A DNA stretch of 31,487 nt from a virus: the IMG/VR virus record IMGVR_UViG_3300013131_000155, positions 1 to 31,487 of that record; one strand, 5' to 3'. The notes below the pieces were generated by a model, which was given only the letters and a program-made list of their open reading frames with translations, was not told the origin of the DNA and did no database searches. Shown here in pieces: positions 5,911 through 28,627 of the stretch; position 1 is the first letter of the stretch; the number at the start of each line of letters is the position of its first letter. The position numbers and the translations under genes were made by a program.

Positions 5911-6466
5911 GATCCTGCACAGTGCTGTTGTTGGTTAACTCTGCATCAAACTGACATCTAGCCCAAGCCCATTCACTGGCGTGTATGTCTTTGGGTTCTA
6001 CTCCCACATCTTGATATATTTTGAACCACAGTGGCAATGTGCCTCTTTTTACCCACCATACTTGGCCGCCTACTGTTTTAATCATGTCAGCTTCATTCAC
6101 AAAACGCACATCTGGAATCACCCAGTTTATTTGAGGATTATCCATGATTTTCTTTTTGGCCAAACTGACCCATATGCCATCGTAGAATCCATTGCGCATG
6201 CATTCTGTGCCAAACTTTTGTAGAGCCAATCTAGGAGTTACTGTGCTGCCAACCTCTTTGCTCCAATATGCATCTGGCTGTTCACGCCATGCTCTACTCT
6301 CATCTGTTTTGCCATCCAGCAACTGTCTATCCCATTCAAACATCTGGGCCACTGCATCTTTGAGCTTGTCAGCAAAAGACATTTTTTGAAAATTGTGTTG
6401 TGTAACCAGATAGTCAGCTATGGTATCTTTGCCACTGCCTATCAACCCGCAAATTCCGATGATCAT
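5873..6466 (-). CDS. 1: Deoxynucleoside monophosphate kinase (T4 gp1-like)
   Basis: A 197-residue P-loop kinase. The N-terminus reads MIIGICGLIGSGKDT, a Walker A motif with K13 and D14, as in T4 gp1 dNMP kinase (241 residues). It is followed by the LVTQHNFQKMSFADKLKDAV block typical of this family and by a distal WVIPDVRFVNEAD segment (Walker B and substrate region). The enzyme phosphorylates dNMPs with ATP to supply dNTP synthesis during infection. It follows gp13 on the same strand after a 47-nt gap that holds a perfect 8-bp hairpin just before the ATG. No Shine-Dalgarno sequence is visible there. Its 3' end overlaps the convergent HNH-like gene. dNMP kinase specificity over other adenylate-kinase-like enzymes is family knowledge. 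Confidence 0.85.
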   Translation of the reverse strand: MIIGICGLIGSGKDTIADYLVTQHNFQKMSFADKLKDAVAQMFEWDRQLLDGKTDESRAWREQPDAYWSKEVGSTVTPRLALQKFGTECMRNGFYDGIWVSLAKKKIMDNPQINWVIPDVRFVNEADMIKTVGGQVWWVKRGTLPLWFKIYQDVGVEPKDIHASEWAWARCQFDAELTNNSTVQDLRNQVQGLLAPI

Positions 6467-9958: not shown

Positions 9959-10393
9959 ATGAGCATGAGGAAAATAATTGGCTGCGGAGCCTTGTTTTAT
10001 AATCTCCAAACCAAAAGATTCTTATTTCTACACAGAACACAGAGCAAACAATCCAATGTGTGGGGGTTAGTGGGCGGCACTAATATTGAGAGTGAAACTC
10101 CATGGGAATCTCTCAAAAGAGAAATCAGTGAGGAAGTGGGTCCGGTAGATATTGTTAAAACCATACCTTTGGAAACTTTTGTTAGCAATGATGAAAATTT
10201 TTTATATCACACTTATTTGTGTGTGGTCAAACAAGAATTTTTACCCCAACTGAATCAAGAGCATGATGGTTATGCTTGGGTGCAGTTTGGCAAATGGCCC
10301 AAACCTTTGCATCAAGGATTACGCAATACTCTCACAAATAGAACCAATCAAATCAAACTGGAAACAGTTTTTAAGATGTTAAAATTTCTATAA
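9959..10393 (+). CDS. Nudix hydrolase
   Basis: A 144-residue protein with a complete Nudix box, G40-x5-E46-x7-R54-E-x-x-E58-E59-x-G61, the Mg-binding catalytic loop that cleaves X-linked nucleoside diphosphates. GALFYN and WGLVGG before the box, and the YAWVQFGKWPKPLH strand after it, complete the fold. The substrate cannot be read from sequence. Its position directly before ADP-heptose synthase (stop TAA and next ATG share one base) raises the possibility that it acts on an ADP-sugar or cleans up a nucleotide by-product. MutT-like housekeeping is equally possible. Two ATGs (9959, 9965) are in frame. No good ribosome-binding site is seen, so translation may be coupled to gp15. Confidence 0.92.
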   Translation: MSMRKIIGCGALFYNLQTKRFLFLHRTQSKQSNVWGLVGGTNIESETPWESLKREISEEVGPVDIVKTIPLETFVSNDENFLYHTYLCVVKQEFLPQLNQEHDGYAWVQFGKWPKPLHQGLRNTLTNRTNQIKLETVFKMLKFL

Positions 10394-11643
10394 TGATCAA
10401 AATAATTGGTGATATAATGCTGGATCGTTGGATCATGGGCACTGCTAATCGCATGTCTCCTGAAGCACCTATTCCTATTCTATTAGAACAAAATCAAAAG
10501 GTTTCTCCAGGAGGAGCTGCCAATTTGGCAGTGAATGTGGCTGCCATTTGCAATGATGTACAATTGTATGGAGCAGTGGGCAAAGACGCAGATGGATACG
10601 GATTGGTTAATTTATTAAAAAACAGCAATGTATTTCTGTCCATAGCAGAAGATGCAGTGATCACCACAACAAAAATAAGATTGGTTGAACAAAGAGGTCA
10701 GCACATACTGCGTTGGGATAGAGAAAAACAATACACCAAGGACAGTTGTTTATCACAATTGTTATTCTCTCTCACAGAAAAAAGCATGGTATTGGTGAGT
10801 GATTATGCCAAAGGAGTTATCAAATCACACACAGTAAAAAATATTTTAGAAAAAACACAGTGGGTATTGGTAGATCCCAAACAAAGTGCTGATTATTATG
10901 ATGGAGCATTTCTAGTAAAACCCAACATGAAAGAATATGAATCTTGGAATGGTGTGTTTGATGTGGATTCAGCTGTGAAATTTGCACAAGCACACAACTG
11001 GCAATGGCTGGTGATCACTGATGGCGCCAAAGGTATTCATATCGTTTCCAAACAAGGATCATACTCACATGTGAAAGAACCTGTGAGAGAAGTAGCAGAT
11101 GTTACCGGAGCAGGAGACACTGTGCTGGCAGTGATAGCGTATGGTATCAAACGAGGCATGACTGTGCCACGTGCTTGTGAATTGGCATGTTATGCAGCAG
11201 CAAGAAATGTGGAAAAATTTGGCGTTGTGCCTGTGACCAAACAAGATTTGAACAAAGGAGTGGTATGGACCAACGGAGTGTTTGATATACTGCACACAGG
11301 ACATTTGGAACTGTTAAAGTTTGCTAGAAATCAAGGCAAAAAATTAATAGTGGGCATCAATGATGATGCCAGTGTGTGTAGATTAAAAGGTGAAGGCAGA
11401 CCAGTGAATGATATCAACACAAGAAAACGTCAATTAGAAATGTTGCCTTGGGTGGACGAAGTAATAATATTTGCGGAAGATACTCCACAAAAAATTATAG
11501 AACAAATCAAACCAGACATCATTGTGAAGGGTGGAGATTACACAGTGGCCACCACAGTGGGCAATGAGTTGGCACAGGTAATTATCTTTCCCACAGTGGA
11601 AGGATTTTCCACCACCAAAATCATAGATAGATTACAATCATGA
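10393..11643 (+). CDS. hldE: Bifunctional ADP-heptose synthase HldE (heptose-7-P kinase / heptose-1-P adenylyltransferase)
   Basis: A 416-residue two-domain enzyme (E. coli HldE has 477; the linker here is short). Residues 1 to about 275 are a PfkB/ribokinase-fold kinase: GDIMLDRW, SPEAPIPI, PGGAANLAVN, LVSDYAKG, VDPKQ, KPNMKEYE and the VTGAGDT anion hole with catalytic D242. Residues from about 290 are a cytidylyltransferase-fold domain: TNGVFDILHTGH (HxGH at 301-304), DASVCRLKGEGRPVN, EDTPQKIIEQIKPDIIVKGG and a final TTKII. It converts D-glycero-D-manno-heptose 7-P to the 1,7-bisphosphate, and after phosphatase action adenylylates heptose 1-P to ADP-heptose. All signature residues look intact. 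It overlaps the Nudix stop by 1 nt and the hldD start by 4 nt (ATGA). It is very unusual between phage structural genes. Confidence 0.96.
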   Translation: MIKIIGDIMLDRWIMGTANRMSPEAPIPILLEQNQKVSPGGAANLAVNVAAICNDVQLYGAVGKDADGYGLVNLLKNSNVFLSIAEDAVITTTKIRLVEQRGQHILRWDREKQYTKDSCLSQLLFSLTEKSMVLVSDYAKGVIKSHTVKNILEKTQWVLVDPKQSADYYDGAFLVKPNMKEYESWNGVFDVDSAVKFAQAHNWQWLVITDGAKGIHIVSKQGSYSHVKEPVREVADVTGAGDTVLAVIAYGIKRGMTVPRACELACYAAARNVEKFGVVPVTKQDLNKGVVWTNGVFDILHTGHLELLKFARNQGKKLIVGINDDASVCRLKGEGRPVNDINTRKRQLEMLPWVDEVIIFAEDTPQKIIEQIKPDIIVKGGDYTVATTVGNELAQVIIFPTVEGFSTTKIIDRLQS

Positions 11644-12467
11644 AAATATTAATCACAGGACACAACGGATTCATCGGTCAAAATCTATTCAAACATTTCA
11701 TGCATAAAGGACACACAGTGGAAGGTTATGAGTATGTTGCTGGCAAATTTCCAGACACAGTCAAATATGATCAAGTGATACATCTAGGCGCTATCAGCAG
11801 CACTGTGGAAACCAATGTGGAAAAAATCATGCTGCAAAATTATGATTTCAGCATGCAGTTGATCAAAAAATGCATCAATGCAGGTGTGCCTTTTCAATAT
11901 GCCAGTTCAGCCAGTGTGTATGGCAACACTGATAATTTTTGTGAATCATCCGCTAAAAATCCCAATTCAGCCTATGCCTGGAGCAAATATTTGTTTGATA
12001 GAGAAGTGGAGACATTACTGAAGATTCATCCCAAAACAATCATTCAAGGATTTAGATATTTTAATGTGTACGGTCCAGGAGAAACACACAAACAAAATCA
12101 AGCATCACCCATTTCAAAATTTATTTTGGAAGCAAAAACCAAAGGCACAGTGACAATTTTTGAAAAAAGTGAAAATTATTTGAGAGATTTTGTGTGCGTG
12201 ACAGATGTGTGTGAGATACATGATCAAATGCTGCACAAAAAAGTCAGCGGCATTTTTAATGTGGGCACCAGTATTGCCACCAGTTTTGCTGACATCGCCC
12301 AAATTATTTCTCAAAAATATCAAGCCAAAATTGTCACTGTGCCCATGCCTAACATGTTGACTCACCAATATCAAACTTATACCTGTGCAGACAATAGTCT
12401 TTTAAATACTCATGTGAACATCCAATTCAAAACCATAAAAGAATATATTGAACATGACTGTAACTAG
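11640..12467 (+). CDS. hldD: ADP-L-glycero-D-manno-heptose 6-epimerase HldD
   Basis: A 275-residue extended short-chain dehydrogenase (E. coli HldD: 310). The NAD(P)-binding GxxGxxG is G7-HN-G10-FI-G13. The active site Y112-x-x-x-K116 (YAWSK) and ASSASVYG are present. The substrate region FRYFNVYGPGETHKQNQAS, followed by LRDFVCVTDV and GIFNVGT, is the distinctive HldD signature rather than that of UDP-glucose epimerases. It epimerises ADP-D,D-heptose to ADP-L,D-heptose, the donor used by LPS heptosyltransferases. Its start overlaps the hldE stop (ATGA) and its end overlaps the cupin start by 14 nt, so translation is coupled. The C-terminus is shorter than in E. coli, with the final beta/alpha elements trimmed. 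Confidence 0.95.
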   Translation: MKILITGHNGFIGQNLFKHFMHKGHTVEGYEYVAGKFPDTVKYDQVIHLGAISSTVETNVEKIMLQNYDFSMQLIKKCINAGVPFQYASSASVYGNTDNFCESSAKNPNSAYAWSKYLFDREVETLLKIHPKTIIQGFRYFNVYGPGETHKQNQASPISKFILEAKTKGTVTIFEKSENYLRDFVCVTDVCEIHDQMLHKKVSGIFNVGTSIATSFADIAQIISQKYQAKIVTVPMPNMLTHQYQTYTCADNSLLNTHVNIQFKTIKEYIEHDCN

Positions 12468-12858
12468 ACCTGAAGGCAAAGTGGACAAGGGGTGGGGCTA
12501 TGAATTGATATGGGCCACCAATGATCAATACTGTGGAAAAATACTGGTGTTCACCAAAGCAGGCAACAAATGTTCATTGCATTTTCACAAAATCAAAGAT
12601 GAAACTTGGTTTGTGAATTCAGGAAAATTTTTGGTGCGTTGGATAGACACCAAAGATGGAAAAATTTATCAGAAAGAACTGCTGGAAGGACACACTTGGA
12701 GAAATCCTCCTTTGCAACCTCATCAATTGGAAGCAGTGCAGGACAACAGTTCAATCACAGAAGTTTCCACTGCGGACAGCGTGGAAGACAATTACAGAAT
12801 AGTGCCAGGAGACAGTCAAAAAATTGTTACGCCTGAGCTTCACCCCAACGTAAAATAA
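12454..12858 (+). CDS. Single-domain cupin, sugar-isomerase/epimerase type
   Basis: A 134-residue protein from the ATG at 12454 (an in-frame TTG at 12448 is less likely). It has a complete first cupin motif, G37-x5-H43-x-H45-x4-E50-x6-G57, and a second metal His in PLQPHQ (H90), so a metal site is likely. The layout (GWGYE start, HFHKIKDETWFV, NPPLQPHQLEAV) resembles small cupins related to the C-terminal domain of type II phosphomannose isomerases and other sugar-phosphate cupins. It overlaps the end of hldD by 14 nt, which links it to the heptose pathway, perhaps as an isomerase or a sugar-nucleotide modifier. The reaction is not determined. Its last 32 bp overlap the convergent giant tail gene. 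Confidence 0.88.
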   Translation: MTVTRPEGKVDKGWGYELIWATNDQYCGKILVFTKAGNKCSLHFHKIKDETWFVNSGKFLVRWIDTKDGKIYQKELLEGHTWRNPPLQPHQLEAVQDNSSITEVSTADSVEDNYRIVPGDSQKIVTPELHPNVK

Positions 12859-15800
12859 CAGACCCACTTACTGCTGCACCTGATATCTTGTAGATATTGA
12901 TAGCCAGCACGTCAGGACCATTAGGGAATGTGCCCCTGCCACCTATGGCAGTGGTGGTCAATTCTTTTAATTCAGACAAGCTCAATGCATTCAATGCACC
13001 TGGTTGTACCAAGAATGAAAATACCTGTTCGCCTGGCAGCGCGAATTGAGGGTCACCAAATTGGAATGTCACTGTGCCAGCTGCTGATACAGAGGTGGTC
13101 AGTGTCTGTGTGAATGTGGCTCTGATCACAGTGGTAGTGCCCAATCTTCTGTTGCTCACAGCACTCACAGATGTGTTGGCTGGAAATTGAGTGAATGAAG
13201 TGGCCACCCTGGTACCATTGGCAGCACCTGAGTTGTTCCAAGAGGCCTGTGTGAAAAATATAAAGTTACCTGCATATGTAGCACCAGTGCCTGATGCAGT
13301 CACAGTGGTGCTGGTATTGGTATTCACTGCCTGTGTGGCATTGGCAGCTGAACTCATCACTATTCTGGTGTAATTCACACCATTGACACGAGCATAGGTA
13401 GAGGTTATGCCAGCCACGGTCTGACCGCTGATCACGTAGGTGCTCGCATTCAACACATCACCCAACGTAACATTGGATGTGGTGGTGTCTGTGTCAAGGA
13501 TTAAAAAGTCTGTTCTGCCGTTCACATAGGCCCTGGCATAGTTCAAAGAGATACTGTTCTGCACTGGTGTAGTGATGTTGGTACTTACAGGGCTGGTGGC
13601 ATTGGCCACTGAACTCATCACAATTCTAGTGTAAACAGATCCCAAATAAGCGCGAGTGATGGTGGATATGGTTTGACCCGTGGTCACATAAGTGCCCACC
13701 ACTATTCTATCTCCCACTCTCAAAGGAGTGCTGGTTAGTGCATCATAGGCCACATTAGTGATGTAGAAATCATTGTCGGTGGTTTGAAATGCTCTTGTTC
13801 TAAATCCTGAGTTGGCAATGGCTGTTAAATTCTGTGTGACTGTGGTGAATCCTCTGGCAGTGATTGTGGTGGTCAATGCACCTTGAATGGTGGCTGTGGT
13901 GGTCGTCAGTGGTACACCTCCCCAGTTGATGGATCCTCCCAATGCTATCTGTGCAAAACTGGGTTGACCTCCTGCTGCTGTGCTGGCCAAACCAGTCCAG
14001 GTAATGTTGGCAGGATTGGCTGGATAATTTCTTGGATTCAATACTCCTTCCACAACCACGGTGCCTGTGCTGGTGTCTGTGGTCACGGCCACTTCGTTTA
14101 ATAATAATTGTGCTCTGTTTAACAGATCTCTTTCTCCCAAATCGCCCACCAATGCATTGGAAACTGAAGGAGCCAATCTGATCATGAAAGCAGTCTGTTT
14201 GGCAGTGCTCACGCTCAATCCTGTAGCAGCATAGTTGAAAATGTATCCTCGGTCTTCATCAAACATACCGTCTGTTAATAGTGCTGATCCCCAGTGACTG
14301 ATGGTAGGAGTGGCTGTGCAACTGATCAGTGTGACTCCCACTCCTGCTGTGTGTGATGCTGCCGCACCAGCTGTGAATAATCTGTTGATACCTGCTGTGA
14401 ATGAACTGAATGTGGCTGCTCTGGTGCAATTTATTAAAGATCTGCCTGATTTTCCATTGTAGGATATCATTTCATTGTCGATATATATCACACCGTTTGT
14501 AGGAAATTTGCTTGTGTCATACAATTGCACTGTAGTCTCTGAATCATTGATACTTGCGTATAATTTGTTCACTGCTGTGCGATTTTCCACTTCATATCTC
14601 ACAGGAAGGTTGGCAGTACGCATATAAGCTTCAGTGTTGGTGTTGGAATTTCTTAACTTATGCAAGAACACAAATTTACCATCAGCGCCTCGCAACATCC
14701 ACTCAATAAATCCTGCTGCATACCATGAATACTGTATGCCCAACATCTGCATACGCCATGGCAATATGTCATATCCACTGGGTCCTGTGCCATCCAATTT
14801 GTCCAAGTTCCATTGACTCTGCGGCACATATAATTCTTCGGTGATACACACTCTAGCTCCGGTGACGTTGTTGGCGCCTCGCCAGTCTGGAGTCACAAAC
14901 ATTTGACTTTGAGATGTGATTTGAGTAACCAAATGACTCATACCTCTGATCACAATTTTATCTCCTTCTTTTAACTGATCTTGGAATCTTGTGCCTGTGC
15001 CTTGCACGGCATTGCTGTCCACGTTGCAGGCCACTGTACCAGTCAATTGATTGGTGCTGCTTCTGCGTACCACTGCCATTTCATTGCCGTCGTACTGATA
15101 AAATATTCCATTCTGTTCATCAAAAGCACCAATGCGCACAGCGCTGCCATGCCAACGTTTCAAAATCATTTTGCAATCAGTGCCCAACTGTGCTGTGGTG
15201 GTGCTGAGTACCACTGCTGATCTGGCAGTGAATCTGCGTGCATCTATCACGCTTTCCACTGTGAATTCACCGTTGTATTCAAAACTCACAAAGCCTATGG
15301 TTTCTATCACACAACCTGCTTGTACTCCGTGGTCTGTGTCATCTGCCACAAAAGTTATTAGACTGTTTATAGCGGTACCATTAGCTGTGGCTCCTGACAA
15401 GTTGTAACTGGGTGCAAATAAACCTCCAGTGGTGTACATGATGCCTTTGCCTGATTGATATCTGATATATTTTTTGCTCTGACGTATGGCTTGCGCACCA
15501 TGACTGGGATTGCCTGTGCCCAATTGTACTCCCCCATCAAATGGTCTATGCACAAAGAAACTGTCTGGTCTGGCATACAACACTCCTGTGACTGAACTGT
15601 TGGTGGTGTTCACAATGCCTGTGGTTCTAGCCACAAATCTAATGGAAGAACGACTGGGCACTGCAGATACCACATGTGGACCTGTGCCCAATTGATGATT
15701 GGCTGAAGTTAAATTGATTTCCAAAGCAGTGGTGCTTTGATTTGTTAATACAAATCTTCCAAAACCTTGACCTGTGTAATAGCTGTAGGCCAATGAATCC

Positions 15801-18800
15801 CAAGTGGATGATGTGGCTAAAGTTCTTGCAGTGAATGAACCTGTTTCACCAGTGAATGATGTCAGTGCATTATCAGTACCCGTGGCAGTTATTAAAAATA
15901 CATCATCACCATAAATTATCTCGTTCCATGTGGTACTGCTGGGTAATGTGCTCAGCGTCCAAGTGGTTCCGTTGGTGGAAAATGCCGCATTGGTACTGCC
16001 GGAGCTGATGGCCACAAATCTGTTGTTGCCGTAGCTGATTGCACTCCAGTTGGCACTGGCTGGCAGTGCTCCTGTGGCAAGCCAGCTGGCTCCATAATCG
16101 GGTGAATAATTAGCAGCAGTGCCACCTGAAGCCACTGCTACGAAATATGTGGAAGTTCCTATTAATCCTGAAGCTACGCTTGTCCAGTTGCCGCTGCTGG
16201 CTAAAGTGCTGGATACCCAGTTAACTCCGCCATCGGTACTGTAGGCAGCTGCAGTGCCTCCAGTGGACACAGCCACAAATCTTCCGTCTCCATAGGCAAC
16301 CTTGCTCCAACTGGCGCTGCTGGGCATTAATGTGCTGGCAATGCTCCAGCTGACTCCACTGTTCACTGACCAAGCAACATCAGTGCTGCCACTGGCAATG
16401 GCCACAAAATATGTTGTGCCACCCACTTGACCAGCTGCCACTGAACTCCATGTGACTGATGAAGGCAATGCTCCACCTGCTGCCCAAGTCTGTCCATTGG
16501 TTGAACGCTGGGTGGCATTGGATCCTGCTCGCACAGCCACAAATACACCTCCAAAACCAGCCACTGACCATGTGCCGCTGCCCACAGAAAAAGTTCTAGC
16601 AGTGGATGCAAGATCTGGTGCAGGTTGTGAAGTGACCTCACTCAATATAGTGGTGCCTGGAGTCAATCCATGCGGAGCTTGAAAGTCCACTTGGAAAGTG
16701 GCAATGGCTCCCACGTTTAATGCAGTGCCAGCAGCTATGTTGCCTGTGATGGGTTCACTGATGGCCATGGTGGGATAAACAGTGATGGAATCTCCTGCAT
16801 AACCTACGCCGCTGATAGAGATAGTGTCTATCAAACCTCCACCTGTGATACCAGTCACTGTGATGGTGGCATCGTTGGCAGTGGTCGCACCATCTAAAGT
16901 GGTACCCAACACAGTGATTGTGTTGCCTTCTTCATACAATGTGCCTGCTTGGTTGATGGTGGCTGAATATGTGCCTGTGGTTCTGGTGATATTGAATTCT
17001 GCTCCACTGCCCAAATGTGCCACGTTGGCAGCTGATGTACCGTTGTAGGTTTGGTCACCCGAATCTCCCACTGGTGAGCCCACCACACTAAAGGTTATTA
17101 CATCTCCTCCAGGAGCCACTGAGTCTATTTCCAACACGATGTCATTGGCTGGTGTGGCACCACCAAAAAGAGTACCTGCAAATGTGACCTGTTCAGTCAC
17201 AAGGTAACCAGTGCCTGCTACTATCAAACTGATGGAATATGTGCCTGTGCCACCTGTTCTTGTGACATTGATTTGAAATCCACTGCCTGTGCTGCCGGTG
17301 TAACTGGTGTGTCCCACGTTGGTGTAAGTAGCACCTCCCAATATGGAAGTGCCTGTGTATGTGAATGAGTCAATGTCCCCACCAGTGCCCGCTGCTGTGA
17401 CCAATATGTTCACATCGTTGGTTGGAGTGGTGCCGCCCAAAGCAGTGCCTAATATTTTTAATCTGTCACCTTTTTGATAATTGTAAGGTGTGGGTGATGC
17501 TCCAGGCGTCTGCACTAAGGTATACACTCCAGCACTGCGGCTCACATCAAACTGAGCTCCCACTCCTGCTGGTGCTACCAGTGTGCCTGACACAGCGTTG
17601 TTGGTATGATTGCTGCCTTTGTAAGCAGTGCCCAATTGATTGCTCAAAGATAATTGATTGCCCACTATGGTGTTGATGGTGGCAGCAGTGCCTCCCACAT
17701 CCAAAGCCATGCCTGTTTGTATGCCAGTCAAATCGGTCAAACTTATTTGAGTATCAGTGACTAGAGTGTTTAACAACACACTGGTGGTCACAGAAGCCGC
17801 GCCCACTGTGCCTGACACACTGGTGCCCACAGGTATTTCTACTGGACCTGTCACAGGTGAACCCACTGTGGGGGCTGATCCTATATAAACAAATGAAGTG
17901 GCTCCTGTGGTGGCTGCCAATGCAGTGACCACGCTGAGTGTGGTACCGTTGGTGAACACTGAGAAACTGGGTTGACCTATGGAAGCACCTGTGAAAAATT
18001 GTGCTTGACGTATTTGAATAAAAGATGTCAATAAACTTTCTTCATTGGTGGTGCCCACTTTGGCACTGGCATAATACGTGAAACTCACTGAACTGGGCAC
18101 ACTGTAAATCAAGAAAGATCCTTCTGCTCTGGCGAATCCACTCACTGTGTTGTTCAATCCTTTCACAGAGATTGGTTGACCCAAAACAAATCCATGCACT
18201 CCTGAAGTGGTCACTGTGATCAATGAACTGCCGAAAAATCCTGTGTTCACTGATGCATCAGTGGTGCAGCTCAAAACAGTCAAATCACTGCCGGGTATTT
18301 CATAAGTGGAAGGATACATTCTTAAAGTGCCCAAAGCCTGCCATTTGGTGGGCTGTAATCCATATTCAAAGTCAGCATCCAACATGGCCTGTGGTGCTGC
18401 CACTCTCATTCTTTCAATAGCGTCAGTGCCAAACTCCCAAGGTCTAATTTGTTGGCTGGCTTCTTCCACAAAAATTTGCAAGTTGGCAGTGGCAGTGAGT
18501 GTGCTGGTGTCTGCGCTCAAATCTATGGTGGTGATAGAATCACTGGTTTGCCACCAAGTGGGAAAATCCAAATCACTTAATAAATTGCCGTCGCCGCTGC
18601 TGCGTCCTTGTTTGTAAGATACTGAAATTGAATTGGCTGGATCAGCAAAACTGTAGAGCACATTGCCTGAATCCACATCTGTAATCAATAGTACAGAAGA
18701 TGGATCAATCTGTCCCATCAATCTTATGGAAGACACTCCAGGAACTTTGGCTGGCATTGCACTGGGACCATTGGTAATCACTGTGCTGAAAATATTCCAC

Positions 18801-19279
18801 AAGGTAGTGTTGGCAGTGGGTGCATCACTTTCTGTACTGATGCCTGCTGTGAACACTTGAGGTGTGACGTTGCCGTAGGCGGGACTCACTGGTGTTTTGG
18901 TCAGTATGTATTGATTGATAATATCACGCAGATAGGCCTGACCAGTGGTTTCGGGTGAGACATCACCTCGGATCTGGGGTTCTCCATCTATCCAAAAATA
19001 ATCTGCCACCTGTCTTGATTTGACGTTGCCACCATATCGCAAATCGTGTGTGACAGCGTCTATGAAAAATCCCACGTCTCTGATACATTTTTGTGAAGCA
19101 TAGGTGTAGCCCACATAGGGTGCTATGCTGTTGGCGATGTTGTAGTTGATGAACGCTACAACCTGCTGTTGTAAAAATGCTTTGTTGGCCAATACCAGTG
19201 TGGCAGCATTGGGATATAGCCCATCATCTTTGCCGATGCCTGGCTCAAATATAAAATTTTTTAACTGTTTTTTAGCCAT
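12827..19279 (-). CDS. Giant tail/adhesin-like virion protein with Asp-box beta-propeller
   Basis: A 2150-residue beta-rich, Ser/Thr/Gly-rich protein. Residues 1 to about 330 are a globular domain (FEPGIGKDDGLYPN, CIRDVGFFIDAVTHDLRYGG, PWEFGTDAIERM) of a type seen in large tail proteins of marine T4-like phages. Residues of about 560-830 contain three tandem modules with GxxYxxG and GGxTPxND. Residues of about 890-1135 contain five Asp-box repeats (S-T/V/P-D/N-x-G-x-x-W, ~44-residue period) and a degenerate sixth, a beta-propeller typical of sialidase-like and glycan-binding domains. Residues of about 1195-1560 hold another conserved tail domain (SQWNLDKLDGTGPSGYDI, WMLRGADGKFVFLH). Two ~85-residue repeats sit near the C-terminus. 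It is a plausible host-binding baseplate or fibre component. The start has a weak ribosome-binding site below a GGTAAATA promoter. Confidence 0.85.
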   Translation of the reverse strand: MAKKQLKNFIFEPGIGKDDGLYPNAATLVLANKAFLQQQVVAFINYNIANSIAPYVGYTYASQKCIRDVGFFIDAVTHDLRYGGNVKSRQVADYFWIDGEPQIRGDVSPETTGQAYLRDIINQYILTKTPVSPAYGNVTPQVFTAGISTESDAPTANTTLWNIFSTVITNGPSAMPAKVPGVSSIRLMGQIDPSSVLLITDVDSGNVLYSFADPANSISVSYKQGRSSGDGNLLSDLDFPTWWQTSDSITTIDLSADTSTLTATANLQIFVEEASQQIRPWEFGTDAIERMRVAAPQAMLDADFEYGLQPTKWQALGTLRMYPSTYEIPGSDLTVLSCTTDASVNTGFFGSSLITVTTSGVHGFVLGQPISVKGLNNTVSGFARAEGSFLIYSVPSSVSFTYYASAKVGTTNEESLLTSFIQIRQAQFFTGASIGQPSFSVFTNGTTLSVVTALAATTGATSFVYIGSAPTVGSPVTGPVEIPVGTSVSGTVGAASVTTSVLLNTLVTDTQISLTDLTGIQTGMALDVGGTAATINTIVGNQLSLSNQLGTAYKGSNHTNNAVSGTLVAPAGVGAQFDVSRSAGVYTLVQTPGASPTPYNYQKGDRLKILGTALGGTTPTNDVNILVTAAGTGGDIDSFTYTGTSILGGATYTNVGHTSYTGSTGSGFQINVTRTGGTGTYSISLIVAGTGYLVTEQVTFAGTLFGGATPANDIVLEIDSVAPGGDVITFSVVGSPVGDSGDQTYNGTSAANVAHLGSGAEFNITRTTGTYSATINQAGTLYEEGNTITVLGTTLDGATTANDATITVTGITGGGLIDTISISGVGYAGDSITVYPTMAISEPITGNIAAGTALNVGAIATFQVDFQAPHGLTPGTTILSEVTSQPAPDLASTARTFSVGSGTWSVAGFGGVFVAVRAGSNATQRSTNGQTWAAGGALPSSVTWSSVAAGQVGGTTYFVAIASGSTDVAWSVNSGVSWSIASTLMPSSASWSKVAYGDGRFVAVSTGGTAAAYSTDGGVNWVSSTLASSGNWTSVASGLIGTSTYFVAVASGGTAANYSPDYGASWLATGALPASANWSAISYGNNRFVAISSGSTNAAFSTNGTTWTLSTLPSSTTWNEIIYGDDVFLITATGTDNALTSFTGETGSFTARTLATSSTWDSLAYSYYTGQGFGRFVLTNQSTTALEINLTSANHQLGTGPHVVSAVPSRSSIRFVARTTGIVNTTNSSVTGVLYARPDSFFVHRPFDGGVQLGTGNPSHGAQAIRQSKKYIRYQSGKGIMYTTGGLFAPSYNLSGATANGTAINSLITFVADDTDHGVQAGCVIETIGFVSFEYNGEFTVESVIDARRFTARSAVVLSTTTAQLGTDCKMILKRWHGSAVRIGAFDEQNGIFYQYDGNEMAVVRRSSTNQLTGTVACNVDSNAVQGTGTRFQDQLKEGDKIVIRGMSHLVTQITSQSQMFVTPDWRGANNVTGARVCITEELYVPQSQWNLDKLDGTGPSGYDILPWRMQMLGIQYSWYAAGFIEWMLRGADGKFVFLHKLRNSNTNTEAYMRTANLPVRYEVENRTAVNKLYASINDSETTVQLYDTSKFPTNGVIYIDNEMISYNGKSGRSLINCTRAATFSSFTAGINRLFTAGAAASHTAGVGVTLISCTATPTISHWGSALLTDGMFDEDRGYIFNYAATGLSVSTAKQTAFMIRLAPSVSNALVGDLGERDLLNRAQLLLNEVAVTTDTSTGTVVVEGVLNPRNYPANPANITWTGLASTAAGGQPSFAQIALGGSINWGGVPLTTTTATIQGALTTTITARGFTTVTQNLTAIANSGFRTRAFQTTDNDFYITNVAYDALTSTPLRVGDRIVVGTYVTTGQTISTITRAYLGSVYTRIVMSSVANATSPVSTNITTPVQNSISLNYARAYVNGRTDFLILDTDTTTSNVTLGDVLNASTYVISGQTVAGITSTYARVNGVNYTRIVMSSAANATQAVNTNTSTTVTASGTGATYAGNFIFFTQASWNNSGAANGTRVATSFTQFPANTSVSAVSNRRLGTTTVIRATFTQTLTTSVSAAGTVTFQFGDPQFALPGEQVFSFLVQPGALNALSLSELKELTTTAIGGRGTFPNGPDVLAINIYKISGAAVSGSVILRWGEAQA
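13290..13800 (-). repeat. Two ~85-residue coding repeats near the C-terminus of the giant tail protein
   Basis: Two adjacent copies of a module share GD-x-x-x-x-x-T-Y-V-x-x-G-Q-T-x-x-x-I-T and YTRIVMSS-x-ANAT. They are diverged at DNA level. They are probably stacked beta-domains that lengthen the protein. Boundaries are approximate. Confidence 0.7.
15870..16605 (-). repeat. Five to six Asp-box (BNR-like) repeats coding a beta-propeller
   Basis: Asp-box peptides STNGQTW, SVNSGVSW, STDGGVNW, SPDYGASW and STNGTTW are spaced by about 125-138 nt, each followed by a W-S/T-x-(I/V)-x-(Y/S)-G and F-V-A-(V/I) strand. A sixth degenerate unit follows. The boundaries given are approximate. Confidence 0.75.
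16790..17600 (-). repeat. Three tandem ~90-residue modules in the giant tail protein
   Basis: Each unit carries G-x-x-F-x-(V/I)-(S/T)-R-(S/T), a Y-x-x-G turn, then GT-x-L-x-G-x-T-(P/T)-x-ND and GG-x-I. The units are diverged at DNA level but clearly homologous in protein. Such modules build long beta-structured tail proteins. Boundaries are approximate. Confidence 0.7.
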
Positions 19280-19306
19280 TTTTCACTGAGTTAAGTTTAG
19301 ACATTG

Positions 19307-19314
19307 TATTTACC
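19307..19314 (-). promoter_or_regulatory. Late-promoter-like GGTAAATA for the giant tail gene
   Basis: GGTAAATAC on the minus strand, 27 nt above the ATG at 19279, overlapping the stop codon of the preceding gene by one base. It departs from TATAAATA at two positions but matches the window's own R-TAAATA-Y pattern. Confidence 0.55.
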
Positions 19315-20027
19315 TATGCTCCAAAAGCCACAGCATAAGCCAATGCAGTGCGATCCACATAATCTTTTCTAGTGATATTGGCTGCTGCAGTGGGGGTATT
19401 CACCACAGTGCCGCTGACGAACGCAGCAGTGCTGGCCACAGTTAATCCTATAGAGGTATTGTTGATGATGGTATTTTTCACAGGCAAATTGGAACCAGTT
19501 GCATCAATTCTGCCCACTTCCACACTTTGACTGCCAGTTTTAAAAATCACATCACCCAAAGGTTCAATGAAGAGATCGCTGAGAGTACTGCCATCATCCA
19601 CACTGGTGATACTGTTGGTGATCAACGAGTTGTTGGTTTGAATATTGTTCTGTACTAATAAATTTTGACCTATGTTGACATTGCTGTTGAATATGCTGTC
19701 GTTGTTTACTCGTAAATTGTTTTGAATGGCCACTCCTCCTGACACAACTAAAGCAGCAGAAATCAATGAATCAGCAGCACTGGTGTCAGTGATGTTCACT
19801 GTGTCATTGAACACTGCAGCACCATCCAATGCAAAAGTGCCTTGCAATTCAGTGGAGTCAGTGACCAATAAATCTGTCAGTGTGCTGATGCCTGCAGCAG
19901 TGATATCATTGGCAGTGACATTGTTGACTGTGACGTTGTTGGCTATTAGATTTCCTGCAGTATTCACGCTGAATGAAGGGCTTTGAAAGCCATTCAATGA
20001 TTTAAATGGATTATTGACTACTGGCAT
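19314..20027 (-). CDS. Tail fibre-like virion protein with beta-helical repeats
   Basis: A 237-residue, cysteine-free protein. Residues of about 20-150 contain short periodic strands (NLIANNVTVNNVTANDIT, then NNLRVNNDSIFNSNVNIG and LLVQNNIQTNN) typical of trimeric beta-helical or repeat-stalk tail fibre segments. The C-terminal part (LFIEPLGDVIFKTGS, TRKDYVDR) resembles the ends of structural proteins in marine T4-like phages. No enzymatic motif is seen. It sits directly upstream of the giant tail gene and has its own GATAAATA late promoter 19 nt above the ATG, but a poor ribosome-binding site. It is a probable tail accessory or fibre protein. The exact position in the virion is unknown. Confidence 0.7.
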   Translation of the reverse strand: MPVVNNPFKSLNGFQSPSFSVNTAGNLIANNVTVNNVTANDITAAGISTLTDLLVTDSTELQGTFALDGAAVFNDTVNITDTSAADSLISAALVVSGGVAIQNNLRVNNDSIFNSNVNIGQNLLVQNNIQTNNSLITNSITSVDDGSTLSDLFIEPLGDVIFKTGSQSVEVGRIDATGSNLPVKNTIINNTSIGLTVASTAAFVSGTVVNTPTAAANITRKDYVDRTALAYAVAFGA

Positions 20028-20046
20028 AAATGTCTAATTTTTAGTG

Positions 20047-20054
20047 TATTTATC
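20047..20054 (-). promoter_or_regulatory. Late promoter GATAAATA
   Basis: GATAAATACACTAAA on the minus strand, 19 nt above the ATG at 20027. The same 15 nt recur exactly at 25607-25621, which supports a shared functional element. Confidence 0.65.
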
Positions 20055-20071
20055 TAAGGCCAGCTGGTATT

Positions 20072-20488
20072 TCAGCGTGTGATAGGATTCAAAGTTTCAA
20101 AATACGTGGCTTGAAATATGCATTTGGAACCATAGTATATGGTGCTGTCAGCGCCTTGTGCTGCAGTGGCTCTCAGTTCCACATATGAGTCATTCACTGT
20201 GGCTGTGAGAGTGATCAGTTCATTGCCAAGATTTCCACGACCATATATGGTCACTGTGGCAGTGTTTGGCCCACCCACCAGCAAACATCTAATGATTTCT
20301 TTGTTGTTGGTATCATAGTCTATCATTATGGTGTATTCAGCAGCTGACACAGATGTAAATTGCCATCTGTCTATGAGTGTGTCTGTTTGCACAGTGGTGA
20401 AAGGTCCTCCCACTGAAAAATTCAAACCATTTTTCAACAGCAGTGTGTTTTTTACACCCTTACCAAACAAGTTGTTTACATTGAACAT
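20072..20488 (-). CDS. Small virion protein of unknown function
   Basis: A 138-residue protein (MFNVNNLFGKGVKN...). It is predicted to be mostly beta from alternating hydrophobic stretches such as YTIMIDYDTNNKEIIRCLLVGG, in short strands, and ATVTIYGRGNLGNELITL. No known catalytic motif is seen. It lies between the tail fibre-like gene and the 2OG oxygenase. A GGTAAATA element ends 5 nt above the ATG and no Shine-Dalgarno sequence is visible, so the mRNA may be leaderless. The position and style match the small structural proteins of marine T4-like phages. I do not recognise it more precisely. Confidence 0.65.
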   Translation of the reverse strand: MFNVNNLFGKGVKNTLLLKNGLNFSVGGPFTTVQTDTLIDRWQFTSVSAAEYTIMIDYDTNNKEIIRCLLVGGPNTATVTIYGRGNLGNELITLTATVNDSYVELRATAAQGADSTIYYGSKCIFQATYFETLNPITR

Positions 20489-20493
20489 GTGTA

Positions 20494-20501
20494 TATTTAC
20501 C
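20494..20501 (-). promoter_or_regulatory. Late-promoter-like GGTAAATA
   Basis: GGTAAATAT on the minus strand, 5 nt above the ATG at 20488. The spacing equals that at 1482-1489 and 7312-7319, and no ribosome-binding site is visible. Confidence 0.5.
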
Positions 20502-20526
20502 TGTGAATTGGGTTATTTTTTAAGTG

Positions 20527-21135
20527 TCATTTGGCACACCACTTTGCAATGTCTTGCCATTGTGTGGCACTAAAAATTTCTTTATACATAGAATCTTCAT
20601 TGACATAAGGTATAAAATTTATGTTTATAGCCACTCTTACTTTTGCATCAGTACAGGTGGTTCCTGTGTGTTTTAAATTGCTGGGAAACAAAACTATTCT
20701 ATTTTGTTTGCTTTCTATTTTGTCACCATCTTCAAACTGAGTGCAACCATTGTTGTCATTGACATAATAAATTCCGGTTACACTGTATGGTGCGAATGTG
20801 TCAATGTGCAGTCCATGTGGCACAATTTTTTCTGCTCTAGGAATAAGATTTGCTTTTACCCTTATAAAATTCATAGGTTGAATCACATAATAGATAGGAA
20901 ACAACATTTCCCAATTTTCCATTGGTGTTACTATATTGCCGTTTTCTTGGAAGGAATGAGTAAATTGGAATTGATAATCTTGCGTATTTTCAGTTGCATC
21001 TTCATCAGCTACCACGTAATCCTTATAATACCAACTGAAAAACACGCCAAATATTTGTGATTTTATTTTCTCACTTTCAGCATGAGATATTACATTGTCT
21101 AAAATCAATTTATTATTTTTAATTGTTTTTTCCAT
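20527..21135 (-). CDS. 2-oxoglutarate/Fe(II)-dependent oxygenase
   Basis: A 202-residue protein from the ATG at 21135 (a GTG immediately upstream is an alternative start; AAGGTG directly precedes it). The catalytic core is H110-I-D112, then H156 in FPSNLKHTGTT, and R167 in VRVAIN for 2-oxoglutarate, all within the double-stranded beta-helix (GIYYVNDNNGCTQFED). This is the prolyl-4-hydroxylase-like architecture common in marine phages. It would hydroxylate a protein side chain or a small molecule using O2 and 2-oxoglutarate; the substrate is unknown. It lies downstream of the GT9-carbamoyltransferase-GT9 group on the same strand, 40 nt after the last of these. Hydroxylation of a tail protein or a glycan is the attractive but unproven role. 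Confidence 0.85.
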   Translation of the reverse strand: MEKTIKNNKLILDNVISHAESEKIKSQIFGVFFSWYYKDYVVADEDATENTQDYQFQFTHSFQENGNIVTPMENWEMLFPIYYVIQPMNFIRVKANLIPRAEKIVPHGLHIDTFAPYSVTGIYYVNDNNGCTQFEDGDKIESKQNRIVLFPSNLKHTGTTCTDAKVRVAININFIPYVNEDSMYKEIFSATQWQDIAKWCAK

Positions 21136-21175
21136 CACCTTTTATTATTTAATGTGTATTCACGTGTTAATCTCT

Positions 21176-22126
21176 TTATTTTTTATTCTTTTTATAGCCG
21201 TGTTTGATCATGCTGTTCACTGATTGCACAATTCTATTCTCTATCTCTGTGTCCATTTGCATGGCATCTTCGTTGGCTCTGTCAGCATATTCGTCCATGG
21301 TGATACGTATGGGACTGTAAATTCTGCTGTCTTTATTCATGTCAATGATATCAAATTTATTGTTGTCTGGATATGAAACATTTTGTGGAAAAGTGGACCC
21401 AAAAACCACTGTGGCAGTTTTATCAAATGCATTGGCTAGATGTTGTCCTAGACTGTCGCAGCCTAAAAAATGATCGCACATTTTAATCACTGCGCTCCAA
21501 ATTCTCACATGTATATTCTGAGGCACAGCCACAGGAAAGTTTATTTGATATTTGTTTAAATCAATGGGAAATTCTGACATCAACATCACTGCATGTTGTT
21601 TGCCCAATTGTCTTATGATACTCACTATATTTTCTAATTCAAAACTTCTACCACTCACATCTATAAAACTATCATTGTCTTTTTTAGACACTCTACCAAA
21701 AGGTTGAAACACTACTATTTTTTCTTTTTTAGTGGTATCCTTTATTTCTTTGATCATCTGTCTAGCCATAATCAGTTCTTCTTTGGACAGATAAATTTTA
21801 GGCTTGTTGAATGTTCGCAATCCTTGGCCGTTGATTTCTATATCATAGGCTTGAGCAATGTTGCATTGTTGATTGTAGTATTCCCAAACTCTATAAGGTT
21901 CAGGAGTGATCAGTTGTCTATCTTTGAGATATTCATTGAATAAATTTTTGTGCCATACATCATAAGCTCTAAAATGTAACTTTGGATGACCTTTGTAAAA
22001 ATCAGTGCCTCCTTCACACACAATGATAAAATCATCATGGGGGTTATCATTGGCGTAATTTTCCAATGCTGGCACAGAACACAGTGTTCTACCTGCACCA
22101 CCATTGATGAAGAATGCTTTATTCAT
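21176..22126 (-). CDS. GT9-family glycosyltransferase (ADP-heptosyltransferase type), copy 1
   Basis: A 316-residue protein with the GT9 layout. The N-terminal nucleotide-fold loop is GGAGR (9-13), followed by PALENYA and FIIVCEGG. The C-terminal donor-binding part has VVFQPFG and then CDHFLGCDSLGQHLANAF near residue 220, plus VVFGST-P-N-SYP, equivalent to the D-S/T-G-x-x-H and G-x-T-x-P motifs of WaaC/WaaF. GT9 enzymes transfer heptose from ADP-heptose. Because HldE and HldD are encoded nearby, ADP-heptose is the probable donor. The acceptor may be a glycan or, as in TibC-type autotransporter heptosyltransferases, a protein. It is clearly paralogous to the gene at 23926-24867. It starts 1 nt after the carbamoyltransferase stop. 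Confidence 0.85.
   Translation of the reverse strand: MNKAFFINGGAGRTLCSVPALENYANDNPHDDFIIVCEGGTDFYKGHPKLHFRAYDVWHKNLFNEYLKDRQLITPEPYRVWEYYNQQCNIAQAYDIEINGQGLRTFNKPKIYLSKEELIMARQMIKEIKDTTKKEKIVVFQPFGRVSKKDNDSFIDVSGRSFELENIVSIIRQLGKQHAVMLMSEFPIDLNKYQINFPVAVPQNIHVRIWSAVIKMCDHFLGCDSLGQHLANAFDKTATVVFGSTFPQNVSYPDNNKFDIIDMNKDSRIYSPIRITMDEYADRANEDAMQMDTEIENRIVQSVNSMIKHGYKKNKK
21870..21901. repeat. 32-nt direct repeat, copy in GT9-1
   Basis: The 32 nt are identical to 24605-24636, in the same orientation and the same place in the paralogous gene (coding EPYRVWEYYNQ and neighbours). It marks a duplicated gene pair or later recombination between the copies. Confidence 0.9.
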
Positions 22127-22127
22127 A

Positions 22128-23933
22128 TTAATTAGGTACGTGTATTAATTTTTTATATTCAGGTAGATAAAGATATTCTATTTTAGAATTTTGAAGAGTA
22201 CGCACAGCGTCTTCCAATGTTTCTACCAATGGTTCTCCACCCAAATTAAACGAGGTATTAAAAATTATTGGAATACCAGTTTTTTCATAGAAAGTTTTGA
22301 TTAAATTGTAATAATTTTGATTCTGTTCTTTGGTAACTGTTTGTATTCTACAAGTGCCATCCACATGAATTATGGCAGGAATTTTTTCATGCACACCATC
22401 CTTACAGTTCACAGCATACATCATGTATGGAGATTCGTCCATGCCTCGCAAATCAAACCAATCATGCACATGTTCTTTCAATATGGTTCCAGCAAAAGGT
22501 CTGAAATATTCTCTCTTTTTAACTAGATTAACGAAATCTTTGCCATCTTTAAAAGTTGGATCAAACAACAGTGATCTATTTCCCAAAGCTCTTGGTCCAT
22601 TTTCAGATTTTCCTTGAAACACAGCCACGATGTTTTTTTTGGTCAACAATTCAGTTATCTCATTATCATTGGAATCTTTCAGTATGGTTTTTGCTCCGTC
22701 ACACAATTGTTCTATGTCTGTAATGCTGTATTTTCTTTCTGGTCCTAAATATAGAGTGTGACTGTTCAATGGAGTTTTGTGTGAGAATATTTGATGATAA
22801 AATAACAGAGCAGCGCCCATGGCAGTGCCTGCGTCATTGCTGACTGGTTCCACATACAATTCTATTCCGTCTTTGCGCAGATATTCTAGATATGAATAAT
22901 TGGCCACACAATTTAAACCATATCCTCCTGACAGTACCACTTTTTTCTTTTGAGTCATTTGCACTGCTTTGTATATTAATTTCAGCACTTCGGCCTGAGT
23001 TTCCATCTGACAGGCGTATGCCATGTCTCTGCGACTCTGTAATTTGGTCACATCATCGTATGAGCTACCATCAGGATCCTGCAAGCCTTCAAACAATTGT
23101 CCGTTCACTAGAGCTGCATTTGGATATGTGGGCAAAATTAAATTTCTATTTGATAATGATATTACACTGTTGGTTTCGAATAGTTTGGGAATTTTATCAT
23201 TGGGTGTGCCATAAGGAAATAACCCCATGGTCTTGCCAGCTTCAATGGGCATAAATCCACAGTATTGAGTCACTGCTTCATAAACTTTTACAATGCCAGC
23301 TCTGTCACTGAACACAGCCTCATGAGTCTTGCCAGGCTCATCTGTAATCTCAGAAGGAAAATTTTTCATCACTGCACCCAATACTGGATCTCTAGTGCCA
23401 TAATGTTTGTATAAAGATTTAAACTCTGCAGGGTAAGCACAATCTATGATGGATTCCACTTCCCACACTGTGGTAGGACCTTGTATGTTATTGTTGATTC
23501 CTATGAAAGTGCCAGCTCCATCCACTATCACACTCACGGCACTGTCAAAACCGCTACGATAGAAGGCACAAGCTGCATGTAATTTGTGATGTATGTGACT
23601 GAGATCAATCACTTGTGGATGATTGTGTGAGTCAGCCTGTCTATCAATCAGTCCTAATTTTCTTGCCAATCCTGTATAAACATCATCACCTGAAAAATCC
23701 ACTTTGCCTGCAGTGTCTTTGAGTTTTTGTGTGTGTGCAACCACTAGATAATCTATTTTATCAGTGTGTTTGAGTATTTCAACCATGGAAGCAAAAGGAC
23801 CTCCATCATATTTTTGTCTACTTAATCTTTCTTCTTCAATGGAAAAAACTATCTTTCCATTTTTCAATAAACAAACTCCTGCGTTGTGTCCTCTGGCAAT
23901 AGCAGCAATATATCCTGAAAGTTTTTTAGTCAT
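22128..23933 (-). CDS. O-carbamoyltransferase, NodU/CmcH/TobZ family
   Basis: A 601-residue protein from the ATG at 23933 (MTKKLSGYIAAIARGHNAG). A longer open frame reaches 23984, but it would lie inside the upstream GT9 gene. The N-terminal Kae1/YrdC-related domain has H16-NAG, EEERLSR and the metal-binding H-x-x-H-x-x-H cluster (HIHHKLHAA, near residue 115), then VIVDGAGTF. The C-terminal domain starts near residue 430 with the signature ENGPRALGNRS and continues with YFRPFAG and PIIFNTSFNLGGEP. These enzymes form carbamoyl-adenylate from carbamoyl phosphate and ATP and transfer the carbamoyl group to a hydroxyl, usually of a sugar. It overlaps the end of GT9-2 by 8 nt and abuts GT9-1, so it very probably carbamoylates the glycan made by these enzymes. 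Confidence 0.95.
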   Translation of the reverse strand: MTKKLSGYIAAIARGHNAGVCLLKNGKIVFSIEEERLSRQKYDGGPFASMVEILKHTDKIDYLVVAHTQKLKDTAGKVDFSGDDVYTGLARKLGLIDRQADSHNHPQVIDLSHIHHKLHAACAFYRSGFDSAVSVIVDGAGTFIGINNNIQGPTTVWEVESIIDCAYPAEFKSLYKHYGTRDPVLGAVMKNFPSEITDEPGKTHEAVFSDRAGIVKVYEAVTQYCGFMPIEAGKTMGLFPYGTPNDKIPKLFETNSVISLSNRNLILPTYPNAALVNGQLFEGLQDPDGSSYDDVTKLQSRRDMAYACQMETQAEVLKLIYKAVQMTQKKKVVLSGGYGLNCVANYSYLEYLRKDGIELYVEPVSNDAGTAMGAALLFYHQIFSHKTPLNSHTLYLGPERKYSITDIEQLCDGAKTILKDSNDNEITELLTKKNIVAVFQGKSENGPRALGNRSLLFDPTFKDGKDFVNLVKKREYFRPFAGTILKEHVHDWFDLRGMDESPYMMYAVNCKDGVHEKIPAIIHVDGTCRIQTVTKEQNQNYYNLIKTFYEKTGIPIIFNTSFNLGGEPLVETLEDAVRTLQNSKIEYLYLPEYKKLIHVPN

Positions 23934-24867
23934 CTGTATTTCTGCCCATGATACCATTAATAACAAATTCTTCAATCTGTTCATTCATATTCATAAGCAA
24001 CTCATTTTTTCTATTGATTCTTTCATCCATAGTGATTCTTATGGGATCGTATTCTCTATCAATTTCTCCAAGGTCCATGATGTTGAAATATTCACATTCA
24101 GGATAGCTGGTATTAATGGGGTATGTTGGGCCCAATACCACCGTTGTAGGCGTGCCTACTGTGTAGGATAGATGTTGTCCCACACTGTCACAACCAAAGA
24201 AATGATCAGCATGTTTGATCACTGAGGCCCATTGTCGCAGATTTAATCCTTCAGGAAAAGCCACTTCGTCTGTGTATTTCTGATCTTTGAGATCCAATCC
24301 AAATTCTGACATCAGTATCACTGCAAAGTTTTCTTTTTGCAATTTTCTAATGAGACTTTTAACATTTTTATATTCTATGCTGCGACTGGTTTTGTCGATC
24401 AAAGTGTTGTCTATGTGTTCTATGCCTCTGCCAAATGGTTGAAATATAATTGTTTTTTCTTTTTTTATTTTATTTTTTATTTCATCGATCAATTTTTTGC
24501 CTTGTATGATTTCTTCTTTGCTCAGCATCACAGTGGGTTTGGGTAGAGTTCTTACTCCTTTGTTGTTGATCAATATATCAAATGCTTGTGAAAGATTACA
24601 CTTCTGATTGTAGTATTCCCAAACTCTATAAGGTTCCAAACTCATTACATCTCTACTCTGCAGTTTGGAATGAAATAAATTTTTATGAAAAATGTCGTAG
24701 GTTTTTTGATCCAACAGAGGATGCCCTTTGAGTATGTCCACTGCTCCTTCACAGATCACTAAAAAATCTTTGTCTCCTGATTCTTCTGCATATTTTTCCA
24801 GTGCAGGAATGGCACATAAGATTCTACCTATGCCACCATTGAGAAAAAATGCTTTGGATCTGTTCAT
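23926..24867 (-). CDS. GT9-family glycosyltransferase (ADP-heptosyltransferase type), copy 2
   Basis: A 313-residue paralogue of the 21176-22126 gene. Shared features are the GGIGR loop (11-15), PALEKYA, LVICEGA, KGHPLL, EPYRVWEYYNQKCN, IIFQPFGRG, then ADHFFGCDSVGQHLS near residue 220 and VVLGPTYP-N-SYPE, and a PIRITMDE segment towards the C-terminus. The GT9 (WaaC/WaaF-like) assignment rests on the two-domain layout and the D-S-x-G-x-H and G-P-T-x-P motifs. Two non-identical copies suggest two sequential transfers or two acceptors. It is the first gene after a 61-nt gap holding a small hairpin and a sigma70-like candidate promoter. Its stop overlaps the carbamoyltransferase start. No clear ribosome-binding site precedes the ATG. 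Confidence 0.85.
   Translation of the reverse strand: MNRSKAFFLNGGIGRILCAIPALEKYAEESGDKDFLVICEGAVDILKGHPLLDQKTYDIFHKNLFHSKLQSRDVMSLEPYRVWEYYNQKCNLSQAFDILINNKGVRTLPKPTVMLSKEEIIQGKKLIDEIKNKIKKEKTIIFQPFGRGIEHIDNTLIDKTSRSIEYKNVKSLIRKLQKENFAVILMSEFGLDLKDQKYTDEVAFPEGLNLRQWASVIKHADHFFGCDSVGQHLSYTVGTPTTVVLGPTYPINTSYPECEYFNIMDLGEIDREYDPIRITMDERINRKNELLMNMNEQIEEFVINGIMGRNTDD
24605..24636. repeat. 32-nt direct repeat, copy in GT9-2
   Basis: Identical to 21870-21901, see that entry. Sequence outside these 32 nt diverges at once on both sides. Confidence 0.9.
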
Positions 24868-27593: not shown

Positions 27594-27596
27594 AAT

Positions 27597-28580: not shown

Positions 28581-28627
28581 ACTTTCAAATCCTTTTTGAT
28601 CAATTGAGCTGTGTGAATTGCGTTCAA

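Follow-up and report, generated by a model that had tools for sequence, protein, structure and literature searches.

A conserved, tail-associated ADP-heptose, GT9-fold and carbamoyltransferase cassette of aquatic T4-like phages, with a cupin proposed in place of GmhA

In the viral DNA of IMG/VR record IMGVR_UViG_3300013131_000155 (a complete IMG/VR contig, though a linear fragment, of 31,487 bases, here called the window), genes for the synthesis of ADP-heptose are interleaved with T4-like tail genes, as are two genes for proteins of the GT9 glycosyltransferase fold and one for a carbamoyltransferase. Comparison with other viruses indicates that this set is a conserved tail-associated module, found in hundreds of T4-like viruses from aquatic habitats. 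In textbook accounts, ADP-heptose synthesis begins with GmhA, a SIS-domain isomerase; this enzyme appears to be missing from these phages, and we propose that a small cupin encoded in the module is a displaced sedoheptulose-7-phosphate isomerase that replaces it. The best explanation as a whole, and one that we consider reasonably probable, is that a conserved phage module supplies a sugar donor, from which the GT9-fold pair would transfer heptose, that the carbamoyltransferase would add an O-carbamoyl group, and that the acceptor would be a tail protein. The more ambitious joint claim, in which a cupin isomerase has replaced GmhA in some Patescibacteria as well as in phages, and GT9 enzymes without the usual catalytic Asp place a carbamoylated heptose glycan on the phage's own tail proteins, is offered tentatively.

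The tail module of the window includes genes for tail tube proteins, sheath, head-tail adaptor, sheath stabiliser and tail-fibre-like proteins, and the cassette runs through it in two groups with operon-like close gene junctions. On the plus strand, the order is gp3-like sheath stabiliser, Nudix hydrolase, HldE, HldD and cupin, with overlaps at every junction from the Nudix gene on (Nudix/HldE, HldE/HldD, here of 4 bases, and HldD/cupin). On the minus strand, it is GT9b, carbamoyltransferase, GT9a and a 2-oxoglutarate (2OG)-Fe(II) oxygenase; GT9b and the carbamoyltransferase gene overlap, and the latter nearly touches GT9a. An earlier reading of the letters of this DNA (the original prediction) had described a phage-borne system of ADP-heptose synthesis, heptosyl transfer and carbamoylation here, and every gene that it named proved to be an open frame at the coordinates given, with specific matches to its family.

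HldE (416 residues; 10393..11643, plus strand) has both of its domains, a heptose-7-phosphate kinase fused to a heptose-1-phosphate adenylyltransferase (NF008454, 5e-105; TIGR02198, 6e-70; TIGR02199, 1e-44), and matches the solved heptose-7-phosphate kinase 4e84 (1.5e-35). The HldD-type ADP-heptose 6-epimerase (275 residues; 11640..12467, plus strand; TIGR02197, 1.2e-66) can be aligned with E. coli HldD (1eq2) and keeps the second catalytic base, Lys178 (K178), but some 35 residues that would follow the first strands are missing; the scores of both proteins fall under the NCBIfam equivalog cut-offs. HldE and HldD are shared with the bacterial GmhA–HldE–GmhB–HldD pathway, whereas neither GmhA (in whose place the cupin is found) nor the phosphatase GmhB occurs in the window, itself a fragment; a GmhB-like HAD protein is present in its relatives (NF006506, 1.5e-37). 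The NodU/CmcH-type O-carbamoyltransferase (22128..23933, minus strand; 601 residues from the likelier ATG, its start being better set at 23933 than at 23984) scores over the cut-off for both Carbam_trans domains (PF16861, 1e-59; PF02543, 9e-24) and matches the solved carbamoyltransferase 7xb6 (6e-56) and TobZ. Both domains are shared with the O-carbamoyltransferases TobZ, GdmN and NovN, the family of its best PDB matches; what sets the phage enzyme apart is its constant pairing with a GT9-like gene, seen in every GT9 locus surveyed.

How general is this arrangement? We compared IMG/VR neighbourhoods around the best 80 of 489, 343 and 575 matches to GT9, HldE and cupin, respectively, which gave 68, 56 and 60 loci after removal of near-duplicates (GT9 loci needed enough flank). 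The carbamoyltransferase gene lay on the same strand and within 3 kb of GT9 in 68/68 loci, HldD and the cupin were each within 2.5 kb of HldE in 55/56, and a piece of HldE was present in 60/60 cupin loci. This survey bears out the earlier claim that genes for ADP-heptose synthesis, GT9 proteins and carbamoyltransferase are linked within the tail module. Several contigs carrying the phage cassette have been binned into bacterial metagenome-assembled genomes (L243 and L244, assigned to Neomarinimicrobiota, and L246 and L254) and should not be taken for cellular genes; L243 and L244 were considered as cellular cassettes and rejected, the phage tail module being present in them.

Among cultured phages, the closest parallel is the 'LPS gene' (lipopolysaccharide gene) cassette of T4-like cyanophages (T4-GC 302-308), in which gene set and tail-fibre setting are as in the window. 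In P-SSM2, S-CAM1 and S-SSM7 the cassette adjoins the tail fibres on the reverse strand (with insertions in S-SSM7), in the order tail fibre region, GT9-like gene, carbamoyltransferase, HldE adenylyltransferase, HldE kinase, small HAD protein, cupin and epimerase, and all the GT9-bearing cultured cyanophages (S-CAM1, S-CAM3, Sf-FS3, S-SSM7 and P-SSM2) have HldE pieces and the cupin. The window differs in its full-length fused HldE, which is closer to bacterial HldE, in having two GT9 copies flanking the carbamoyltransferase gene and no HAD gene, and in that its set is split by a gene for a virion structural or tail-fibre-like protein of 2150 residues (12827..19279, minus strand; phrog_5838, 1.7e-230). 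Four of the cassette genes were already known as linked, co-occurring 'LPS genes' (T4-GC 304, 305, 307 and 308), their function being left open (Sullivan et al., 2010; PMC3037559); new here are the missing GmhA and the cupin proposal, the Arg of the GT9 proteins and the placing of Nudix and 2OG genes outside the core. If our explanation is true, cultured phages, P-SSM2 and S-CAM1 for example, offer a way to test what these phage 'LPS genes' do.

Is the glycan made for the virion or for the host? In the least certain step of the scheme, the acceptor would be a protein of the tail or tail fibres and not the LPS of the host; the lack of heptose synthesis in some hosts would then explain why the phage brings a complete pathway. 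The other use would be remodelling of the host surface, with phage-made ADP-heptose modifying host LPS or O-chain and so blocking superinfection. GT9 enzymes classically build LPS core, and carbamoylated core heptose is known in Pseudomonas. O-chain modification has been proposed for rfaE and glycosyltransferases in the 'host recognition clusters' of pelagimyophages (PMC7029224). Against this, the module is interwoven with late structural genes, and even in unrelated phages of Vibrio and Aeromonas the GT9-like family keeps its place among tail genes, lying directly before a tail protein gene in Vibrio phage D505 and between a tail-fibre-like gene and the sheath gene in Aeromonas phage HJ05. 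Since heptose is, in addition, reported to be absent from Synechococcus LPS (PMC4377996), decoration of the virion seems the likelier use, and we judge remodelling of the host to be an unlikely, if serious, contender. The carbamoyl-heptose tail glycan of the original prediction therefore keeps its plausibility as regards tail-gene context and the reportedly heptose-free Synechococcus LPS, and is weakened by the GT9 residues discussed below. The cyanobacterial host that it implied, on the other hand, finds no support: psbA and psbD occur in none of 16 long IMG/VR relatives, whereas all four cultured cyanophages tested have them, and a search with the sheath gave mixed hosts. Three paralogous Gly/Cys-rich tail proteins with CCxG-type motifs (320, 332 and 350 residues; window positions 25633-28649, minus strand) are kept beside GT9 in close relatives, and are possible glycan acceptors.

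The cupin (136 residues; 12448..12858, plus strand) is the one pathway-linked gene of the cassette that lacks an assigned role, and the gap that it could fill is a consistent one: a GmhA-type (SIS) isomerase was found in 0/36 phage records, among them the complete genomes of P-SSM2, S-CAM1, S-SSM7 and P-TIM68. Cyanophage genes that are labelled 'phosphoheptose isomerase' (in NC_006883.2, at L002:16030-16374, and in NC_020837.1, NC_015287.1 and NC_028955.1) encode TIGR01689-like HAD proteins of about 112 residues with a DIDGTIC motif, related to capsule phosphatases, and could be rejected as true GmhA. The adjoining cupin bears the label 'cysteine dioxygenase', and both labels look wrong; if the present proposal is true, the first would be corrected to small HAD phosphatase and the second to likely isomerase. 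The cupin profile finds its best matches in D-lyxose isomerase (2y0o, 5e-6), D-lyxose/D-mannose isomerase (7nzo, 2.8e-4) and L-ribose isomerase (0.0018), with CapF, a cupin-bearing capsule enzyme, scoring in between these aldose-ketose isomerases. The HxH..E..H metal motif of the cupin fold is present (H45, H47, E52 and H92), and the YCxK, HxH, E and H residues align with those of D-lyxose/D-mannose isomerases and of the cupins of type II phosphomannose isomerases, although the window protein has just 136 residues and the identity is only some 20%. Conversion of sedoheptulose-7-phosphate to mannoheptose-7-phosphate would be the manno analogue of such reactions, the heptose counterpart of fructose to mannose. 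Two phage loci (L209 and L210) encode a fusion of the cupin with the adenylyltransferase domain of HldE.

Cellular genomes provide a further comparison. In a sample of 333 genomes of a single phylum, the Patescibacteria, 16 have a good HldE kinase (at least 219 bits). GmhA adjoins the kinase gene in nine of these (fused in one) and is elsewhere in the genome in one more, while the cupin accompanies it in six (adjacent in two, fused in four), and in 0/16 are both beside HldE. The cupin–kinase fusions are those of G207, G229, G259 and G342, with GmhB next door in three of the four; in G165, mirroring these, GmhA and the HldE kinase appear to be fused in a 538-residue frame (C4:266204-267724). 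The association of cupin linkage with GmhA absence gives a Fisher P of about 1e-4, a weak SIS match elsewhere in G342 being counted as absence of GmhA, and 9e-4 if the tenth GmhA genome is counted as absent; three lower-scoring kinases leave the pattern unchanged. In one Parcubacteria genome GT9 is followed by the cupin and the HldE kinase, with genes for an HldE-A-like transferase and for an epimerase immediately downstream; a search of this genome found no SIS_2 protein. Other patescibacterial cousins of the cupin adjoin a mannose-1-phosphate guanylyltransferase (GMP) that matches TIGR01479 over the first 341 of 467 positions, that is, without its isomerase part, an arrangement that fits an aldose-ketose isomerase family. 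A quick midpoint-rooted tree, for which no support values are shown, separates these GMP-linked cupins (Y[AV]GK) from the HldE-linked ones (YC[GS]K); in the same tree, cyanophage-type cupins group with the HldE-linked ones, and the clade of the window cupin lies across the midpoint root.

Because no GmhA is seen in the phages, and because the cupin resembles isomerases, is fused to HldE and changes places with GmhA in Patescibacteria, we propose that it catalyses the GmhA step. This goes beyond the first reading, which had recorded a sugar-type cupin: GmhA is missing, and the cupin probably fills its step. Two points temper the proposal. The structure model, though compatible with an isomerase, does not discriminate, the search with it being generic (D-lyxose isomerases at Z 13.6 are tied with many other cupins); and the patescibacterial table is small, is drawn from genomes related to one another and depends on a score cut chosen once the list had been viewed. 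Within the papers that could be searched, no cupin was linked to the GmhA step or to a phosphoheptose isomerase. VIA-align lists for GT9 and cupin held no closer unrelated family, an absence that proves nothing. Might the cupin instead act at a later point of the pathway, as a sugar epimerase in an accessory role or as a metal-binding protein, with heptose-7-phosphate coming from the host? The fold is common to many enzymes, cupin epimerases act on nucleotide sugars, and a distant cupin (L245) adjoins sugar genes of aminotransferase type with no HldE; such a role would not, however, be expected of a protein that swaps with GmhA beside HldE and is fused to both HldE domains, and whose GMP-linked cousins are located where a mannose-6-phosphate isomerase is expected. 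As to a supply from the host, the one Prochlorococcus assembly that was searched (G036) yielded no isomerase of SIS type. We therefore think an accessory role improbable. If the cupin is indeed an isomerase, a second, unrelated enzyme would complete the pathway in aquatic phages that are widespread, and also in a number of Patescibacteria.

The two GT9 proteins, GT9a (316 residues; 21176..22126, minus strand; phrog_8954, 1e-139) and GT9b (313 residues; 23926..24867, minus strand; phrog_8954, 4e-135), are 49% identical. Both are below the Pfam gathering score (17 and 22 bits), so that support by sequence is weak, and a GT9 profile run against PDB sequences gave nothing useful. An AlphaFold model of GT9a (pLDDT 89) nevertheless matches WaaF (Z 21.3), WaaC (Z 18.9) and TibC (Z 18.9), with the first non-GT9 enzymes at Z 12.5 and a chain of the plant NDH supercomplex, of the same fold, at Z 19.2. 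On this modelling, the GT9 fold of the window glycosyltransferases, which the original prediction had assigned, can be regarded as settled.

Their chemistry is another matter, and here lie the main difficulties for transfer of heptose by these proteins. Position 13 is Arg in 123/123 readable phage GT9 sequences, and this Arg is kept in the distant GT9-like relatives of Vibrio and Aeromonas phages. Through the Parcubacteria GT9 it aligns with Asp13 of WaaC, the proposed base, whose change to Ala causes a 4688-fold loss of activity (PMC5713226); the corresponding catalytic residue of TibC is Asp110 (PMC4358343). The equivalent of WaaC Asp261, in contrast, is shared by phage proteins and heptosyltransferases alike: it is D224, within a D-[ST]-x-G-x-H-[LA] motif, in 124/124 sequences. 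An invariant R160 may correspond to WaaC Lys192, the alignment being gapped there. A GT9 fold without the catalytic Asp means that the chemistry must differ, or else the donor or acceptor does, and to judge from these residues the phage GT9s are not straightforward heptosyltransferases. The linkage to a donor is also imperfect. The original prediction had held that relatives routinely carrying GT9 and carbamoyltransferase genes without an ADP-heptose source would speak against it, and this is partly what was found: at least seven of 34 long GT9-bearing records have no HldE match (two more have weak matches only), and these include contigs of 165 and 223 kb. Some of the HldE-less contigs end close to the cassette, and such phages might draw on host ADP-heptose. 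Lastly, a GmhB-like or small HAD phosphatase is near the cupin in 31/60 cupin loci, leaving about half of the cassettes without one nearby.

It could accordingly be argued that the GT9-fold proteins have ceased to be glycosyltransferases, or that their donor is a different one, and that their link to ADP-heptose synthesis is incidental. The uniform replacement of Asp by Arg, the long HldE-less contigs and the occurrence of a GT9-like fold in a plant NDH supercomplex all lend this some colour; the invariance of D224 and other residues, and the consistent company of HldE pieces and cupin in cultured cyanophages, lead us to doubt it, about as much as an accessory role for the cupin. Heptose transfer onto tail proteins remains the reading that we prefer. 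That the cassette is selectively neutral filler, as raised ('stuffer DNA') for the LPS clusters of large cyanophages (PMC3037559), is hardly credible: the frames are intact, residues are invariant, and the genes adjoin one another almost without exception in dozens of divergent phages.

Two genes that the original prediction had included in the system can be set aside. The Nudix hydrolase gene (9959..10393, plus strand; PF00293, 2.4e-14) tracks gp3, which is nearby in 48/48 Nudix loci, and stands beside gp3 with no HldE nearby in five (L045, L068, L073, L075 and L076). The 2OG-Fe(II) oxygenase gene (20527..21138, minus strand; PF13640, 1.4e-5; phrog_274, 3e-41) is a variable insert, with none beside GT9a in the closest relatives (L008-L011). 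Variable slots of the cassette elsewhere (L126, L148, L048, L113 and L131) hold many different 2OG-oxygenase-like genes and one methyltransferase gene, which suggests that decorating enzymes turn over fast. In L216 (2949-5929), L186, L221 and L223, Nudix and HldE are separated by an insertion of two flavin halogenase-like genes, of which the first matches PF04820 (2e-84). In marine relatives (L034:10984-11811 and L040:10993-12813), one or two SGNH-like proteins with an FGCSYT motif and no Pfam match are encoded between GT9 and the carbamoyltransferase gene, the position occupied by the second GT9 in the clade of the window.

Megablast of the window against phages gave no match. Away from the cassette, between the genes for sheath and gp13, the plus strand carries a short HNH-like frame (5569-6466) overlapping the end of a deoxynucleotide monophosphate kinase gene.

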